A DNA stretch of 64,000 bases, taken from NCBI GenBank assembly GCA_947493695.1, contig CANLSF010000009.1, forward strand, positions 62,001 to 126,000. The letters run 5' to 3'. Below the pieces are notes generated by a model. It worked only from the letters and a program-made list of their open reading frames with translations. It did not search any database and was not told the origin of the DNA. This document shows, piece after piece, positions 6,016 to 36,518 of this stretch (the first letter of the stretch is position 1; each line of letters opens with the position of its first letter). This stretch comes from an uncultured Kiloniellaceae bacterium. Lineage in GTDB: Bacteria; Pseudomonadota; Alphaproteobacteria; Kiloniellales; Kiloniellaceae. The translations under genes and the position numbers were made by a program.

Positions 6016-8409
6016 ATGAAGATACCTCACCCCAAAACCCTGTCGCGCTATCTTCCGCTGGCAATTTTTTTGTGCCTGGCCTCAGCGGTTCTGGGCGTTT
6101 CCTGGTTTCTTTCTCACAATCAGACGGTTGCAATCCGTAACGAAGCCAATCTGATCGGGCAGCAAACCGCCGGGCAGCTTGAAAATCACATCACCGATCA
6201 TCTGAGTATTCTTGAACATCTCCGGAATCTCTGGATAAAGCGCCAGATCAACAATCCTGAAGCTTTTGTGGAAACGGTCGAATCCCTTCAACAGCAATTC
6301 TCCGGCTTCCAGGCTGTGAACTGGGTTGACGCTAAGGGCATCGTTCAGTGGATCGCCCCTGAAGCAGGTAACGAACCTGCAAAGGGTGCTAATCTGGCCG
6401 AGCATCCAGCCTCCCGCCAGTTGATAGAACGGGCACTCCACAGCAATCAAGATATGGCGACCCCGCCGATCATACTGCTTCAAGGCGGCAAGGGCTTCGC
6501 AACTTACTACCCGCTTATCAGAAACGGCCAGCTGGAAGGCTATCTGAACGGCGTGTTCCGTATCGACCCCTTGATGGAGAGCGCCCTCGCCCAGGTCACC
6601 CGCAGCGACTATCAGATTATGATCCACGACGAGGGCCAGAAGGTCTACAGCCGGGGCGTCGCCTATGACGAGGAGGCCTTTACGACCACGCACCGCGTAA
6701 AGCTGCTCAACAGATCCTGGGATCTCTCCCTGACGCCTGGTCCCGGCTCGATCGCAGCTCAATCAATGAACGCCGACAAAATCATTCTGGTGCTTGGCCT
6801 ATTACTCTCTGTCGGTCTGGCGTATCTGCTCCGGCTGGTGACCCTGCGACAGGAAGCGCTCTGGGCCGCTCAAGAGAGTTACAGCGGCCTCTTCGAAAAT
6901 GCCACGGAAGGTATCTACCGCAGTCTGCCCGACGGCACCTGCGTCAGCTGTAATCCGGCCATGATCAAACTGAATGGTTTCACCAAGGAATCGGAACTTC
7001 TGAGCGCGGTCAGCTCAAAGCCCAACTCCTGGTACGTCGAACCGGACCGCAGAAACGAGTTCCTGCGACTGCTCAACCGCAATGGCCGGGTGGAAAACTT
7101 CATTTCCGAAGTCCACCGTCTGAGTGACGGTCAACGCCTCTGGGTCAGCGAGAACGCGCATATCATCTGCTGCGAAGAAGGCAAAAGCCTGGGATATCAG
7201 GGCACGATCATGGATATCTCCGAGCGCCGGCGGGCAAACGAGATTCTGCGCCGCGAGCGGGAATTCGTCGTCGCCATGCTGGATACCGCCGAAGCCCTGA
7301 TCTGCGTGATCGACATGGAAGGCCAGGTCGTTCGCTTCAACAAAGCCTGCGAAAGACTCTCGGGTTACAGCCTCTCGGAAGTCATCGGCCGGCCGGTGTA
7401 CGACTTCGTCATTCCCGAACAGGATCGCGACGGCCTGCAGGACATGCTGCGCAGTCTGCGCCTGGGAGTTTACCCAAACACCCACCTCAATTACTGGGTC
7501 TGCAGAAGTGGCGGACAACGGCTGATCGAATGGTCCAATACCGCGCTTCGGGATGAATCCGGCAGGGTCGCCTATTGCGTGTCGATCGGCATCGACGTCA
7601 CCGAACGCAAGCAGGCGGAAGAAGAACTGCAACTGGCCAAGGAAGAGGCGGAGTCGTCGAACCGGGCAAAATCCGAATTCCTAGCCAATATGAGCCATGA
7701 GCTCCGGACACCTCTGAACGCCGTGATCGGTTTCGCCGAGATCCTGGAAAACCAGATGTTCGGAGAGATGGGCGACTCCCGCTACGGTGACTACGCGCGC
7801 GATATCCGTACCAGCGCGACTCATCTCCTGGGGATCATCAACAACATCCTCGACCTCTCAAAGGTTGAGGCCGGGCGCCTGGAACTGATCGACGCGCCCA
7901 CCGATGTCCACGATGTCCTGTCGAGCTGCCTCAACATCGTAAAGGCCACCGCAAATGCCGGAGAAGTCAACTTCGACATTCAAGGCGCGGCGGGACTGCC
8001 CTATCTGCAGGTCGACGAACGCATGTTGCGCCAGATCCTGCTGAACATTCTCTCGAATGCTCTGAAATTCACGCCGGCAGGTGGACGGATCACCGTGACG
8101 CTCAAGAGCGAGCCGGAGGATGCCGCCTACAAAGTGATCATCGCCGATACCGGGATCGGTATGACCGCTGACAATATCGAAAAAGCCCTCACGCCTTTCG
8201 GACAGGTCGAGAGCTCCCTCAGCCGGAAATACGACGGTACCGGCCTGGGGCTTCCGCTCTCCCGTTCCCTGATCGAACTGCACGGCGGCCAACTGACGAT
8301 CGAAAGCGAGCCGGAGAACGGCACCGAGGTTACCTTGAGCTTCCCCGGTCACCGTATTATCCAGCGCCAGCCTCCCCAAAGCGGATCGCGCGCTTCCTCA
8401 GCCAGATAA
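6016..8409 (+). CDS. Membrane sensor histidine kinase with CHASE-like sensor and two PAS domains
   Basis: 797 residues. Order of parts: membrane segment at ~12-32; periplasmic CHASE-like sensor at ~45-250 (IGQQTAGQLENHI, FATYYPLIRNGQLEGYLNGV); second membrane segment at ~255-277; PAS at ~287-405 ending in DISERRR; PAS at ~415-535 ending in DVTERKQ; HisKA with phospho-acceptor His561 in MSHELRTPLNAV; HATPase with N-box Asn681 (NILSNALKF), G1 (DTGIGM, 711-716), phenylalanine in TPFGQ, and G2 (GTGLGLPLS, 741-749). All kinase motifs are intact. There is no receiver domain and no response-regulator gene nearby, so it is an orphan kinase and its ligand and partner are unknown. It is transcribed away from the SOS operon. 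Confidence 0.92.
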   Translation: MKIPHPKTLSRYLPLAIFLCLASAVLGVSWFLSHNQTVAIRNEANLIGQQTAGQLENHITDHLSILEHLRNLWIKRQINNPEAFVETVESLQQQFSGFQAVNWVDAKGIVQWIAPEAGNEPAKGANLAEHPASRQLIERALHSNQDMATPPIILLQGGKGFATYYPLIRNGQLEGYLNGVFRIDPLMESALAQVTRSDYQIMIHDEGQKVYSRGVAYDEEAFTTTHRVKLLNRSWDLSLTPGPGSIAAQSMNADKIILVLGLLLSVGLAYLLRLVTLRQEALWAAQESYSGLFENATEGIYRSLPDGTCVSCNPAMIKLNGFTKESELLSAVSSKPNSWYVEPDRRNEFLRLLNRNGRVENFISEVHRLSDGQRLWVSENAHIICCEEGKSLGYQGTIMDISERRRANEILRREREFVVAMLDTAEALICVIDMEGQVVRFNKACERLSGYSLSEVIGRPVYDFVIPEQDRDGLQDMLRSLRLGVYPNTHLNYWVCRSGGQRLIEWSNTALRDESGRVAYCVSIGIDVTERKQAEEELQLAKEEAESSNRAKSEFLANMSHELRTPLNAVIGFAEILENQMFGEMGDSRYGDYARDIRTSATHLLGIINNILDLSKVEAGRLELIDAPTDVHDVLSSCLNIVKATANAGEVNFDIQGAAGLPYLQVDERMLRQILLNILSNALKFTPAGGRITVTLKSEPEDAAYKVIIADTGIGMTADNIEKALTPFGQVESSLSRKYDGTGLGLPLSRSLIELHGGQLTIESEPENGTEVTLSFPGHRIIQRQPPQSGSRASSAR

Positions 8410-8444
8410 TCGATGAAGGTTTCGATCAGGCAGAAAGAAGCCGG

Positions 8445-9092
8445 TCACACGAACGGCAGCTTGACGCCTTCCTGCTCAATCGTGCGCTGGACCGCCGGAC
8501 GCTCCAGAACCCGTTGAAGAAGTCCGCCGACATTCGGCAAGCGGCGCGGTGGACGGTTCATACCGCGGCCCCAGCGCGATAACATCAGGAGATAGAGATC
8601 ACAAACGCTGATCTTTTCACCGAGCAGATAGGGTTTCCCCTCCAACGCCGCTTCCAAAATGTCGAAGCTGTCATTCAGACGCATTTCGGCCGCCGCAACC
8701 ACTGCATCTTTCCCGGCTTCATCGGTGGTGTAGCGATGACTGTAGAAGTAGGTCAGATAGGTCGACTGGATCGTATTGGTCATATAGCACAGCCACTTAT
8801 AAAGCTGTGCGCGTTCCGGTGAGCCCAGGGCCGGCGTCCAATCGGAATCAGGGTTGCTGTCCATAATATGCAGACAGACTGCGACCGTCTCATGCAAAAC
8901 CAAACGGTCAGGCCCATCGCCTTCGATCAAAACAGGAATCAGGCCGCTGGGGTGCAGCGCCAGATACTCCGGTGTCTTGTGCTCGTTCTTGGTCCGGTCC
9001 ACGAACTTGAGCTCGTAGGGAACGCCGAGTTCCTCAAGCAGCATATGCGGCGTGATGCTGGCATTTCCGGGATAGTAGTATAGCTGGTACAT
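8445..9092 (-). CDS. Glutathione S-transferase family protein
   Basis: 215 residues with the two GST domains. The N-terminal thioredoxin-like part starts MYQLYYYPGNASITPHMLLEEL and carries the cis-Pro region LHPSGLIPVLIEGDG and the glutathione-contact motif LHETVAVCLHIMD. The C-terminal helical domain has the LGEKISVCDLYLLMLSRW signature, equivalent to the conserved N-capping box of GSTs. It conjugates or reduces electrophilic compounds using glutathione; the substrate cannot be told from sequence. It ends 35 bp from the stop of the convergent histidine kinase, with no terminator visible between them. Subclass (beta- or theta-like) is uncertain. Confidence 0.88.
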   Translation of the reverse strand: MYQLYYYPGNASITPHMLLEELGVPYELKFVDRTKNEHKTPEYLALHPSGLIPVLIEGDGPDRLVLHETVAVCLHIMDSNPDSDWTPALGSPERAQLYKWLCYMTNTIQSTYLTYFYSHRYTTDEAGKDAVVAAAEMRLNDSFDILEAALEGKPYLLGEKISVCDLYLLMLSRWGRGMNRPPRRLPNVGGLLQRVLERPAVQRTIEQEGVKLPFV

Positions 9093-28831: not shown

Positions 28832-29485
28832 CTACCCCTCCAAAGCGTATAGGTATCTGGATTGAGAAGGCTTCGGACCGGTCCTGCGATTCCGCGGTCG
28901 ATAAACAAAGGCCCTGGCGGATGAACGCCTGAACAACCTCGACAGCGCGAGAACGGCTAGCCCGAAGCACAGAAGCGTCAGGCTATCCGGTTCAGGGATC
29001 TTAACACGCTGCCCGCGAATCTCGTCACCTGGATTGCTGGGAAAGCTGTGAGCACTGTCGTAAACACTGCTGAGCGCCAGCCGGTTCAAAAAGGCCGCAT
29101 TCGTAATGCCGTTCACAAGGCTTTCGAGCGGCCCAAAGGCCCTTAAGCGAACACCAACGCCGCTTTCGGCGTAGAGGACCAATTCGTTAGAGACGACGGG
29201 TTCATTGGCAACCTGGGGCGCATTGCGCAGATCGACTGCCCCTGCCTCGCCGAACGCAACGCCATCCCCATCAGGCAAGGTAATGTCCGTCAAGGTAATC
29301 CCCGATACGACGAACGCGAAACTCTCAGCGGAACTTTCCTGTCCAGTTTCTGCAAGACTGTATGAGGCAATATACCCTGCACCGGCATTCTCCGGGGTGA
29401 CAAGAAGGCTTCCGGATAAAAGCAGGGTGGCCACAAGAAGCCTGGCTACCACAGCGGGCCTCTTCGCTGAATAACGACGCAGCAA
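28832..29485 (-). CDS. PEP-CTERM sorting-domain protein
   Basis: 217 residues. A signal-like N-terminus (residues ~12-36, VVARLLVATLLLSGSLLVTPENAGA) leads to a predicted beta-rich secreted domain. The C-terminus has the sorting signal: Pro-Glu-Pro at 164-166 (KIPEPDSLTLLCFGLAVLAL) followed by a hydrophobic stretch and an RLFRR basic cluster at ~183-187. Such proteins are cut by an exosortase and delivered to the surface or exopolysaccharide. Here the basic part runs on for ~30 residues (SSARAFVYRPRNRRTGPKP...), longer than usual, and no exosortase gene is in the window. The passenger domain is not recognised. Confidence 0.8.
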   Translation of the reverse strand: MLRRYSAKRPAVVARLLVATLLLSGSLLVTPENAGAGYIASYSLAETGQESSAESFAFVVSGITLTDITLPDGDGVAFGEAGAVDLRNAPQVANEPVVSNELVLYAESGVGVRLRAFGPLESLVNGITNAAFLNRLALSSVYDSAHSFPSNPGDEIRGQRVKIPEPDSLTLLCFGLAVLALSRLFRRSSARAFVYRPRNRRTGPKPSQSRYLYALEG

Positions 29486-32648: not shown

Positions 32649-32712
32649 TCATCGCGGGGCGTTTAGTTTACGGCGCTCATCGCGGGGTATTTGGTTTATG
32701 GCGCTCATCGCG
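32649..32712. repeat. 28-bp tandem repeat, 2.3 copies
   Basis: A unit beginning TCATCGCGGGG and ending GTTTAYGGCGC occurs at 32649-32676 and 32677-32704 (four mismatches), followed by a partial third copy at 32705-32712 that overlaps the stop codon of the RluA-type gene. It fills most of the gap between that gene and the HAD gene and looks like a local duplication. Confidence 0.75.
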
Positions 32713-33769
32713 CCATGGAATCCGGTTTGCGCTTCTCCAGATCGAGGGCATCCGCGTAGGTCGCCAGATCGTTGGCCACATTCTCGCCGTGCCGGACATC
32801 AAAACGGAAAGCCTTCCAGGCCTCCAGCATCTCCGTCGGCAGCGGCGCGGCAATTCTCAGGGTCGTGCCATCGTCCGGGTGCGGCAAGGCAATCTCCTGC
32901 GCATGCAGCATCAGGCGTTTCGGGAAATCGGGTTTTGCAGGAAAGGCCTGCTTGCCGCCGTACTTCCCGTCCCCGAGGATCGGCATCCCCATTTCAGCGC
33001 AGTGGACACGCAGCTGATGGGTCCGTCCGGTGAGTGGCATCAGCGCAAGCCAGGTCAATCCGCGACTCTTGCCGCTGCCTGTGGCAATTGTCTGATATAA
33101 CGTCAGCGCGCGCTTGCCCGCCGGCCCCATGGCGGCAACCTTCTCCATACCGCCTTCAGATGTCGACTTGCCAAGAGACATGTCGATAACGCCGCGCGCC
33201 TTCGGTGGCTTCCCCGCCACCAGGGCCCAATAGATCTTTCGCGCATCCTTGCCTCGAAAGGCCGCCGTCAGATCACGCGCAGCCGCGCCTGTGCGCGCCA
33301 GAAGCAGGACTCCGCTGGTATCCCGATCGAGCCGGTGCACAAGCTTGGGGCGGTCCTTGCGGTCGAAAATCAAGCCATCGAGCATGGCGTCCACGTGACG
33401 GCTTTGGCCCGTCCCGCCCTGTACCGCTAGGCCGCTGGCTTTGTTAATCGCCAGAACCCAATCGTCCTTGAAGATAACCGCGTCCTGCAGGGCTTTGATG
33501 TCTTTGCTCGAGGCAACCACCTTTTTTGCAGGGCGTGCCGAGGCTTCCGGCAGTCTGCCTGGTCCGGCAGAGATCGGGGGAACGCGCACCACCTGTCCCT
33601 CCTCGACCCGCGCCGAGGATTTCGCCCGCTTGCCGTCCAGCCGCACCTGCCCGGTCCGCAACAGCTTTTCAACCTGCCCCTGGGTCACGTCGCTGTAACG
33701 GCGCTTCAACCAGCGATCCAGCCGGTCGCCCGCTTCTTCACCGCTTACGGTCACCATCTCGACAGCCAT
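32705..33769 (-). CDS. RluA-family 23S rRNA pseudouridine synthase (RluC-like)
   Basis: 354 residues. An N-terminal S4 RNA-binding domain (GDRLDRWLKRRYSDVTQGQVEKLLRTGQVRLDGK) is followed by the catalytic motif HRLDRDTSGVLLLA with Asp148 as nucleophile, and the family end LTGRTHQLRVHCAEMGMPILGDGKYGG. It isomerises uridine in 23S rRNA. RluC-like is my best guess from the S4 domain and neighbourhood; RluD is excluded only loosely. It starts 8 bp after crcB. Confidence 0.9.
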   Translation of the reverse strand: MAVEMVTVSGEEAGDRLDRWLKRRYSDVTQGQVEKLLRTGQVRLDGKRAKSSARVEEGQVVRVPPISAGPGRLPEASARPAKKVVASSKDIKALQDAVIFKDDWVLAINKASGLAVQGGTGQSRHVDAMLDGLIFDRKDRPKLVHRLDRDTSGVLLLARTGAAARDLTAAFRGKDARKIYWALVAGKPPKARGVIDMSLGKSTSEGGMEKVAAMGPAGKRALTLYQTIATGSGKSRGLTWLALMPLTGRTHQLRVHCAEMGMPILGDGKYGGKQAFPAKPDFPKRLMLHAQEIALPHPDDGTTLRIAAPLPTEMLEAWKAFRFDVRHGENVANDLATYADALDLEKRKPDSMAR

Positions 33770-33777
33770 GATTACTT

Positions 33778-34164
33778 CTATCCTAAAATCGTTCGGAAAA
33801 GCTGGAGTCCCGCAAAGAACCCAAGCACCGAGAGTACAACGGATGCCAGCGCATAGATCACCGCCTGCCCGGTCTCACCACGCTCAACCAGCAAAACGGT
33901 CTCCATGGAAAAGGTCGAAAAGGTCGTGAACGCACCGAGACAGCCCACCGTTAAAAAGGCCCGCATCATCTGCGACGGCGACCAGACCGAAGCAAAAACC
34001 TCGACCAGCGCCGCCATGACGAAAGAGCCCACCACATTGACCACGAGGGTCCCGTAGGGAAAGCCGCCTCCCATCCAATGACTGATCTGGCTGACGGTCA
34101 GGTAACGCCCGACAGCACCAATTGCGCCGCCCAAGGCCACTGCCAGAATGATCTGGATATGCAT
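33778..34164 (-). CDS. crcB: CrcB/FluC fluoride channel
   Basis: 128 residues, four membrane segments. Family signatures GGAIGAVGRYLTV, FPYGTLVVNVVGSFVMA and TVGCLGAFTTFSTFSMET (the Phe-box lining the fluoride pore) are present. FluC forms a dual-topology dimer that exports fluoride. It heads the crcB-rluA-type pair. No fluoride riboswitch is visible in the upstream 34165-34357. Confidence 0.94.
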   Translation of the reverse strand: MHIQIILAVALGGAIGAVGRYLTVSQISHWMGGGFPYGTLVVNVVGSFVMAALVEVFASVWSPSQMMRAFLTVGCLGAFTTFSTFSMETVLLVERGETGQAVIYALASVVLSVLGFFAGLQLFRTILG

Positions 34165-34357: not shown

Positions 34358-35023
34358 TCAGGCAGCTTCGCCGGAGCGTTCGTCACCGGTCAGCCAGGTC
34401 AGGCAGTTCTCTGCATTCAATAGATAAACCCCCATCCGGCCCAGTTCACGCACGCCCTCTTCGGTGGAATTGCAGACGGCGTCCGGCACCAGAACAATGC
34501 GGAAGTCACGGGCGCTGGCTTCGTAAATCGTAGCCCGGGTTCCGGTCGCGAAACTGAACCCGCAGATAACCAGCGTCGTAACACCGCGGGCCTTCAGCTC
34601 TTCTTCCAGACCGGTGTCATGAAAGGCACCCCAGCGCGGCCGATAGAAGATTGATTCTTTCTCGCCCACAGGCTGGAACTTCCCGGCGAAAAGAAGATCG
34701 GGATCCAGCCGGCTGGCAGATGAGGGTTTGACTTCGTCGATCAACTCAGACCCGAAGCTGCCGGGCATGAGGATGCGAAGGCCCTCCTCAACTGCCTGGC
34801 GGCGGCAGACGTCGACGTTGGTGCCGTCCGGGCGGTAAAGGCGGACGGAATGATAGATTGGTGCACCCTGCTGACGGAAACCGTCAACCAGACGCTTCAT
34901 CGCGGGAATGGCACGACCGAGACCGGCCGCCCGCACGGGAGAACCCGGGAGCGTAAAATCACGTTGCGCGGAAAGCGTCAGAAGAGCGACGGTTTGCTTT
35001 TCGGGTAACGTGTAATCCGGCAT
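34358..35023 (-). CDS. Isochorismatase-fold cysteine hydrolase homologue with degenerate active site
   Basis: 221 residues from the ATG at 35023 (MPDYTLPEKQ), preceded by AAGGGA. The fold is clearly the isochorismatase-like cysteine hydrolase: TVALLTLSAQRDFTLPGSP, HSVRLYRPDGTNVDVCRRQA, FYRPRWGAFHDTGLEEELKA, LVICGFSFATGTRATIYEAS. But all three catalytic positions are changed: Asp is Ser18, Lys is Arg128 and the nucleophile Cys is Gly161 (34541-34543). Family relatives normally have DxQNDF, KPRWGAF and a Cys in the xFPNCPR block. It may be a non-catalytic binding protein. It is transcribed between rarA and crcB on the minus strand. Confidence 0.85.
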   Translation of the reverse strand: MPDYTLPEKQTVALLTLSAQRDFTLPGSPVRAAGLGRAIPAMKRLVDGFRQQGAPIYHSVRLYRPDGTNVDVCRRQAVEEGLRILMPGSFGSELIDEVKPSSASRLDPDLLFAGKFQPVGEKESIFYRPRWGAFHDTGLEEELKARGVTTLVICGFSFATGTRATIYEASARDFRIVLVPDAVCNSTEEGVRELGRMGVYLLNAENCLTWLTGDERSGEAA

Positions 35024-35225: not shown

Positions 35226-36518
35226 TTAGCCCCTCTGAGCGTTCCGTAGTTTCGCCCAGTAATCGAGCCGTTTGCGGATCTCTCGTTCGAAGCCACGTTC
35301 AACCGGCCGGTAAAATGCACGTCTTTGCATATCGTCCGGGAAGTAATTCTGCCCGGAAAAGCCCTCATCGGTATCGTGATCGTAGGCGTAGCCTTTGCCG
35401 TAACCAAGATCTTTCATCATAGAGGTTGGGGCATTGAGGATGTGCATGGGCGGTGCAAGGGAGCCCGTCTCCTTCGCACTGCGAACCGACTCTTTGTAGG
35501 CCTTATAAGCCGCATTGGATTTCGGCGCCGTCGCGAGATAGACCACGGCCTGCGCCAGGGCCAGTTCCCCCTCCGGGCTGCCGAGCCGCTCATAGCTCTG
35601 CCAGGCCGCTAGGGTCTGCGGCAGCGCCTGCGGATCCGCCAGTCCCACATCTTCGACCGCAAAGCGCAACAGGCGACGGCCCACGTAGTTGGGATCCTCA
35701 CCAGCTGAAAGCATCCGCGCAAGCCAGTAGAGCGCCGCATCGCAATCCGACCCGCGTAAGGACTTATGCAACGCTGAAATGAGATTGTAGTGCCCCTCCT
35801 GGGCTTTGTCGTAGATCGGCGCGCGTTTCTGGATCATGACGGCCAAAGCTGCCGAATCGAGCAGGTCATCGACCTGCAGTGCAAAAAGCTCCTCGACCAG
35901 ATTCAAGAGATAGCGACCGTCGCCATCCGCCATAGCGGCAACTGCGGCCCGTGCATCTTCCTGCAGGGGCAGCGCCTTGCCCTTCTCCCGCTCCGCACGA
36001 CGCATCAATTCGTCCATCGCCGTGTCATCCAGGCGCTTGAGCACAAAGACCTGACAGCGCGATAGGAGCGCTGCGTTCAGCTCGAACGAAGGGTTCTCGG
36101 TCGTGGCACCAACCAGGACCACCGTCCCGTCCTCGACGTACGGCAAAAACCCGTCCTGCTGTGCGCGGTTGAAGCGATGGATCTCGTCAATGAAAAGCAA
36201 TGTTCCCCGGCCTGCCAGCCGACGATCCTTGGCACGTTCAAAGACCTTGCGCAGATCCGCCACGCCCGAGAACACTGCAGACAAGGGTTCGAACTCAAGA
36301 TCGGAAACATCGGCCAGCAAACGGGCTATGGTTGTCTTGCCACAGCCGGGCGGGCCCCAAAGCACCATCGATGCCAGGCGATTGCCCGTCACCATACGAC
36401 CCAGAGGCGCGTCGTCCTTCAGCAGATGGTCCTGACCGACCACCTCGCCCAGAACGCTGGGCCGTAAACGATCCGCCAGGGGACGCGGCGCCTGACTCTC
36501 GAAGAGCCCCGTTACCAT
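35226..36518 (-). CDS. rarA: RarA (MgsA), replication-associated recombination AAA+ ATPase
   Basis: 430 residues. Walker A is GPPGCGKTT, Walker B FIDEIHRFN, sensor and arginine-finger region GATTENPSFELNAALLSRC, and the C-terminal MgsA tetramerisation part contains MLSAGEDPNYVGRRLLRFAVEDVGLADPQ. The protein acts at stalled replication forks. It sits in its common alphaproteobacterial neighbourhood next to a Deg-family protease and the crcB/rluA-type genes. Confidence 0.95.
   Translation of the reverse strand: MVTGLFESQAPRPLADRLRPSVLGEVVGQDHLLKDDAPLGRMVTGNRLASMVLWGPPGCGKTTIARLLADVSDLEFEPLSAVFSGVADLRKVFERAKDRRLAGRGTLLFIDEIHRFNRAQQDGFLPYVEDGTVVLVGATTENPSFELNAALLSRCQVFVLKRLDDTAMDELMRRAEREKGKALPLQEDARAAVAAMADGDGRYLLNLVEELFALQVDDLLDSAALAVMIQKRAPIYDKAQEGHYNLISALHKSLRGSDCDAALYWLARMLSAGEDPNYVGRRLLRFAVEDVGLADPQALPQTLAAWQSYERLGSPEGELALAQAVVYLATAPKSNAAYKAYKESVRSAKETGSLAPPMHILNAPTSMMKDLGYGKGYAYDHDTDEGFSGQNYFPDDMQRRAFYRPVERGFEREIRKRLDYWAKLRNAQRG

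Follow-up and report, generated by a model that had tools for sequence, protein, structure and literature searches.

The six isochorismatase-like superfamily proteins tabulated in PMC12553813 have Asp at the first catalytic position, Lys or Ala at the second, and Cys or Gly at the third, and the same table names a pair of substrate-stabilising residues, beginning with a Gln two places after the Asp. EntB and YecD appear there as Asp-Lys-Gly (Table 1), and PMC12210187 describes true isochorismatases as having Gly (Gly156) in place of Cys. The gene described here encodes a protein of this superfamily in which each of the three positions departs from Asp-Lys-Cys. It lies in the window, by which we mean the whole 64,000-nucleotide stretch of DNA that was analysed:

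34358..35023, minus strand: isochorismatase-fold protein, 221 aa, with Ser/Arg/Gly for Asp/Lys/Cys (translation, Pfam, alignments)

An isochorismatase-fold protein with Ser, Arg, and Gly at the triad positions

The reading frame, from 35023 to 34358 on the minus strand, is uninterrupted over 221 aa, the sequence AAGGGA stands 7 nt upstream of the ATG, and Met1 is kept in all 47 orthologous rows with a residue at that position; the open frame and ribosome binding site reported in a first-pass annotation of this DNA were thus recovered. A scan for promoters and terminators found none. Isochorismatase (PF00857) was the sole Pfam family over its cut-off (77.8 bits versus 27; E 1.4e-21), which places the protein in the superfamily by the curated profile, and the score against the BiuH equivalog (NF050097) fell far below cut-off (41.4 bits versus 370). 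The best Foldseek match of the modelled 221-aa protein was 3hu5 (E 1.4e-9), and the best 50 of 129 matches (E up to 0.001) bear names of superfamily members, names that we take to belong to the isochorismatase-like superfamily. An isochorismatase fold, as first proposed, is therefore supported by a model of medium confidence (mean pLDDT 64.5), in which residues 19-32 and 159-165 score below 50, so that the cleft is poorly modelled. Annotation by fold alone would name the gene a hydrolase.

The positions that bear on catalysis are as follows.

34970..34972, minus strand: Ser18, codon TCC, at the catalytic Asp position (codon check and alignment)
34640..34642, minus strand: Arg128, codon CGG, at the catalytic Lys position (codon check and alignment)
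34541..34543, minus strand: Gly161, codon GGA, at the nucleophile Cys position (codon check and alignment)
34964..34966, minus strand: Gln20, two residues after the Asp position, invariant in 56/56 rows (orthologue alignment; substrate-stabilising role from PMC12553813, Table 1)
34742..34852, minus strand: residues 58-94, strongly conserved HxVRLYRPDGSNVDxCRRxAVEEGxRxLMPGxxGxEL (orthologue alignment)

Residues 58-94 may cover the motif II pocket region. In 26 of 27 outside homologues, all of them from the same class (28 were found, and one was dropped for its short match), the three triad columns are Asp-Lys-Cys; the remaining homologue has Asp-Lys-Gly, and the nearest solved structure, 3hu5, also reads Asp-Lys-Cys. 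These columns rule out an alignment shift of the catalytic residues, and the replacement of the triad by Ser18, Arg128, and Gly161, as originally claimed, is confirmed at the level of codons and columns alike. Among the 12 PF00857 genes of the window genome, this is the sole one without all three triad residues: the other 11 have Asp in every case, Lys in eight, and Cys in nine, with Asp-Lys-Cys in six and DKG, DKS, DRC, DSC, and DAC in one each, the alignment being less certain for the three most divergent (DRC, DSC, and DAC). The paralogues L158 and L162 are the ones that also lack Cys (DKG and DKS).

Measured against described activities, the protein has Ser18, Arg128, and Gly161 where the cysteine hydrolases (nicotinamidase, RutB, BiuH, carbamoylsarcosine amidohydrolase) have Asp, Lys, and Cys. 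Gly161 agrees with the Gly at the Cys position of true isochorismatases (EntB/PhzD/VibB), and Ser18 and Arg128 depart from their catalytic Asp and conserved Lys. Since the Asp-Lys-Gly combination occurs in EntB and YecD (PMC12553813, Table 1), a Gly in place of the Cys is by itself no sign of inactivity; the earlier argument from triad loss is weak for the Gly, and the unusual losses are those of Asp and Lys. Arg61 and Arg75 were considered as counterparts of Gln79 and Arg88 of EntB, which bind the ring carboxylate, and this comparison led nowhere, as the profile match to 2fq1 spans only positions 122-189 and stops short of that region. Cys154, which is at least 97% conserved in Ser/Ala-Arg rows and present in 44% of Asp-Lys rows, was not accepted as a replacement nucleophile; in the model it sits in strand 150-154, before the loop.

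A sharply bounded orthologous group, mostly at one place in the chromosome

Orthologues were found in 56 of the 61 genomes of the window's order and in 47 of the 48 with completeness of 90% or more and contamination of 5% or less; among the named carriers are Denitrobaculum tricleocarpae (95% identity) and records under the label Pelagibius sp. In G344, a 100% complete genome of the same order, rarA is present but the 12 kb read there gave no convincing match to the gene (best E 0.11), so the gene is not indispensable. The gene's usual neighbours were also unmatched in that 12 kb stretch (L118; G344:C105:60000-72000), and rarA, too, went unmatched at E 1e-100 in the other four non-carriers of the order (59 to 88% complete). 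When 385 class genomes were searched with a profile at E 1e-25, nine carriers emerged, five of the window's order and four of one other genus, and in the order of that genus (the second order) 12 of 17 genomes, in three of seven genera, carry the gene. All three carriers among 299 genomes drawn from the phylum fell in these two orders. The gap in bit scores bounds the group sharply: three orthologues among 142 class genomes scored at least 334 bits versus 63 bits for the best non-orthologous match, the weakest second-order orthologue scored 318 bits, and the highest outside score, obtained with a larger profile, was 99 bits. One orthologue (L081 of G033, 7998-8725), from a 240-contig draft genome, is broken between two frames, by assembly error or by a real lesion.

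Three neighbours, identified by searches, served as synteny markers.

35226..36518, minus strand: rarA/mgsA-type AAA+ ATPase, upstream neighbour
33778..34164, minus strand: crcB-like gene, downstream neighbour
32705..33769, minus strand: rluC-like pseudouridine synthase

In 40 stretches taken from carriers, rarA was the next searched gene in 38 (none is shown in L043 and L080), and crcB or rluC came next on the other side, on the same strand, in 35; the five outside this pattern comprise two contig ends (L050, L054), one opposite strand (L056), and two stretches in which neither gene was found (L059, L075). A place with rarA on one side and crcB or rluC on the other thus characterises the orthologous group. 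Of the 46 rarA matches in 58 class genomes, we also read 30 loci; the gene was missing from 27 of them within the ~1.5 kb read on either side, and 23 of these 27 have crcB or rluC downstream. The likely history is insertion of the gene into an old gene order, followed by vertical inheritance. Because the same order is usual in the class without the gene, gene context points to no pathway, and we rejected an assignment of function from the neighbours.

Other features of these stretches were seen in passing. In L045 and L068 an open frame of ~700 aa, which by eye we take to be AsmA-like, lies between the HAD and ATP12 genes, which adjoin in the window. A small protein encoded at 28832-29485 on the minus strand has a PEP-CTERM motif at its C-terminus (PF07589, 21.1 bits versus 20.7) and is near an ArsP-type permease (PF03773) and, presumably, an ArsR-like regulator. 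The corresponding PEP-CTERM protein in the relative L079 is 46% identical; genes flanking it on one side reach 91-93% identity, and on the other 63-75%.

The triad probably departed from Asp-Lys-Cys in several steps

The orthologue alignment contained 58 distinct rows (83 before duplicate removal, window included), of which 56 are readable at position 18. These 56 have Ser (27), Asp (17), Asn (9), Ala (2), or Glu (1) at the Asp site; all 58 have Arg (32) or Lys (26) at the Lys site and Gly (32), Ser (16), or Ala (10), and never Cys, at the Cys site. Nine further members from the second order also lack Cys and are all Asp-Lys-Ser, as therefore are all 12 carriers found in that order. Given 0/58 rows and 0/9 further members with Cys, this residue was probably already absent in the common ancestor of the group. 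The triplets in readable rows were SRG (18), DKG (11), SRA (9), NKS (7), DKS (6), NRS (2), and ARG, ARA, and EKG (one each), two of the 58 rows being unreadable at position 18. All three same-genus orthologues are S/R/G. The nearest homologues thus do not keep Asp-Lys-Cys, and the conservation of S/R/G among close relatives, a check named in the first-pass annotation, is borne out.

Positions 18 and 128 covary. Ser or Ala at position 18 is paired with Arg128 in 29/29 rows and Asp or Glu with Lys in 18/18, and the nine Asn rows divide into seven with Lys and two with Arg. Because Arg128 is present in every Ser/Ala row, it looks held rather than drifting. As the gene tree alone left deep branches unresolved, we used a tree built from as many as eight neighbouring proteins (41 rows, ten of them less than half filled), which was rooted on the second order and whose deep branching is partly open. 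In this tree, families f1 and f7 form one clade of 12 rows (support 99/98), and all of its rows, one of them unreadable at position 18, fit Ser or Ala with Arg; this combination is fixed in the two sister families. Family f4 is DKG in 10/10 rows, f8 and the root group are DKS, and f3 contains DKG and EKG. The fewest changes on the tree were 6, 3, and 6 at the three triad positions, respectively. In the simplest history, Asp would have been lost in more than one lineage, and Lys would have been replaced by Arg with or after the loss of Asp. The proposal that exactly the triad was lost is accordingly half right: all three residues are absent, but not through one event, as Cys was probably missing from the start and the losses of Asp and Lys came afterwards, in some members of the family.

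Selection continues across the loss of Asp and Lys

Comparison with the three same-genus orthologues gave dN of 0.028-0.034, dS of 0.94-1.38, which is high, and dN/dS of 0.025-0.030; in one such comparison the gene had a dN/dS of 0.030, with eight neighbours at 0.015-0.095. No stop was found inside any listed orthologous match of the window's order. The gene is under strong purifying selection.

We expressed rate as the median protein distance relative to a neighbour, in the Ser-Arg clade versus the f4 Asp-Lys clade. These ratios were 1.75 (54 pairs) versus 1.85 (43 pairs) for RarA, 0.82 (54 pairs) versus 0.94 (35 pairs) for RluC, 0.64 versus 0.80 for HAD, 0.63 versus 0.66 for ATP12, 0.75 versus 0.86 for CrcB, and 3.35 versus 3.59 for RpoA. 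DegP gave the reverse, 0.99 versus 0.82 (14 pairs each), the sole rise among seven genes. For RarA, the Asn group gave 2.09 and the other Asp-Lys families together gave 2.79, and thus the fastest group still has Asp-Lys.

At the level of residues, the 18 Asp/Glu-Lys rows agree to at least 95% at 38 positions; at 33 of these, 90% or more of the 29 Ser/Ala-Arg rows have the same residue, the exceptions being R9, T16, V60, L194, and K128. The rest of the protein has therefore been largely preserved, in agreement with the initial description, and conservation that is largely intact away from the triad fits a non-catalytic role. Arg61, like Gln20, never varies (57/57 rows), and His58, Arg61, Asn69, Arg75, Arg83, Gln117, Arg130, Arg172, and Asp173 are each missing from at most one of 57-58 rows. 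Aligned without gaps to 3irv, where the residue is His, Arg61 falls at or near the second stabilising (motif II) position.

A candidate pseudoenzyme that may bind without hydrolysis

The reading we lean towards is a pseudoenzyme of the isochorismatase fold, specific to its lineage and inherited vertically, whose old active-site cleft would bind a small molecule and leave it unhydrolysed; pseudoenzyme status is here judged from residues. Underlying this reading are the missing triad, the strong selection, the mostly single syntenic place, and a relative rate and set of invariant residues that stayed largely unchanged after Asp and Lys were lost. Because Gln20 never changes while the catalytic positions do, and Arg61 is also invariant, the simplest interpretation would be that binding was kept and catalysis dropped. 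Mechanistically, the orthologous group may share a function independent of the triad, in which a cleft formed by Gln20, Arg61, Arg128, Arg130, and Phe134 would bind a putative ligand, perhaps an anion, and this binding could serve sensing, carriage, or regulation. Ligand sensing or regulation is a plausible role. In short, the gene is probably a conserved relative of the dead-enzyme type, in marine bacteria, that binds rather than cuts. A broader proposition, which we hold tentatively and rate a little short of even, is a near-order-wide core pseudoenzyme that lost its triad stepwise, from an ancestor without Cys, through Asp to Asn or Ser/Ala, to Lys to Arg, with ligand binding selected throughout. 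Several observations count against binding by a pseudoenzyme: the reversed DegP ratio, the absence from G344, the model pLDDT of 64.5, and the placement of Arg61 by way of 3irv. The conserved cleft residues could instead serve folding or oligomer contacts, and Asp-Lys-Ser in all 12 second-order carriers would fit activity there.

Decay is the alternative most readily dismissed. The orthologue split over two frames could be read as a pseudogene, but a dN/dS of about 0.03 in the genus, open frames with no stop inside orthologous matches, and the conserved place led us to reject neutral decay, as the first-pass annotation had also suggested. It is unlikely, though deserving of some weight, that the protein is still an enzyme with other chemistry (of isomerisation, lyase, or vinyl-ether type), in which Arg, His, and Gln of the cleft would catalyse without Cys or the Asp-Lys pair. 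The nine nearly invariant polar residues listed above would suit such an enzyme, as would the Gly that true isochorismatases carry for Cys (PMC12210187; PMC12553813, Table 1); however, this protein lacks the Asp called catalytic in the VibB account of PMC12210187, and the invariant residues stay the same with Asp, Asn, Ser, Ala, or Glu at position 18.

Mixed oligomers offer another explanation, in which the protein would be a structural or regulatory subunit of an active isochorismatase-fold paralogue or an unrelated protein, with the cleft as a relic. Potential partners exist among the 11 other PF00857 genes of the genome, six of them Asp-Lys-Cys, and superfamily members form dimers or larger oligomers according to PMC12210187 and PMC4519933. 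We nonetheless regard this explanation as rather unlikely, given that outside homologues are distant (63 bits at best in the 142 class genomes) and that the cleft residue Gln20 stays invariant. There might, finally, be no single common function, with active Asp-Lys members (f44, f4, f8, f3) and Ser-Arg members that are inactivated copies with a derived role. The uniform DKS of the second order and DKG of f4 are compatible with such a division, which we consider highly improbable because six of the seven neighbours show a lower or level relative rate and 33 of the 38 invariant positions survive the loss of Asp and Lys. For the favoured pseudoenzyme, the orthologues constitute a natural series (DKS, DKG, NKS, NRS, SRA, and SRG), mostly at one locus and under similar constraint, in which the function remaining after loss of catalytic residues can be tested directly. 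The Asp kept by the 11 other paralogues and by the six proteins tabulated in PMC12553813 is dispensable here.

Comparison with known systems

By sequence as well as by fold, the closest match is 3hu5, by its title a Desulfovibrio vulgaris isochorismatase family protein (profile E 5.6e-31). Both proteins have His58, Arg61, Asp66-Gly67, and Arg163, but 3hu5 keeps Asp-Lys-Cys and has other residues at Arg75, Arg83, Met86, and Pro87. YecD of E. coli belongs to the same superfamily and also has Gly for Cys, and gamma-lactamase activity of the wild type went undetected in the account of PMC12553813; YecD differs in keeping Asp25 and Lys112 (Table 1 of that source). EntB, PhzD, and VibB share Gly at the Cys position (PMC12553813, Table 1; PMC12210187), whereas they keep Asp and Lys, and they match weakly in sequence (profile E 2.8e-9 to 2fq1 and 3.1e-8 to 1nf9). 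YcaC resembles the window protein in departing from the triad, at one position (Asp-Ala-Cys), but retains Asp and Cys (PMC12553813, Table 1).

In the parts of the open-licence PubMed Central literature consulted, we recognised no described pseudoenzyme of the isochorismatase fold and found no description of Asp lost with the other two residues and fixed in a two-family clade. Gly for Cys and single departures such as that of YcaC are known, and Asp loss with the other two was not found described there; for this reason, what appears to be new within a known superfamily is a putative pseudoenzyme clade that lacks Asp, Lys, and Cys together.
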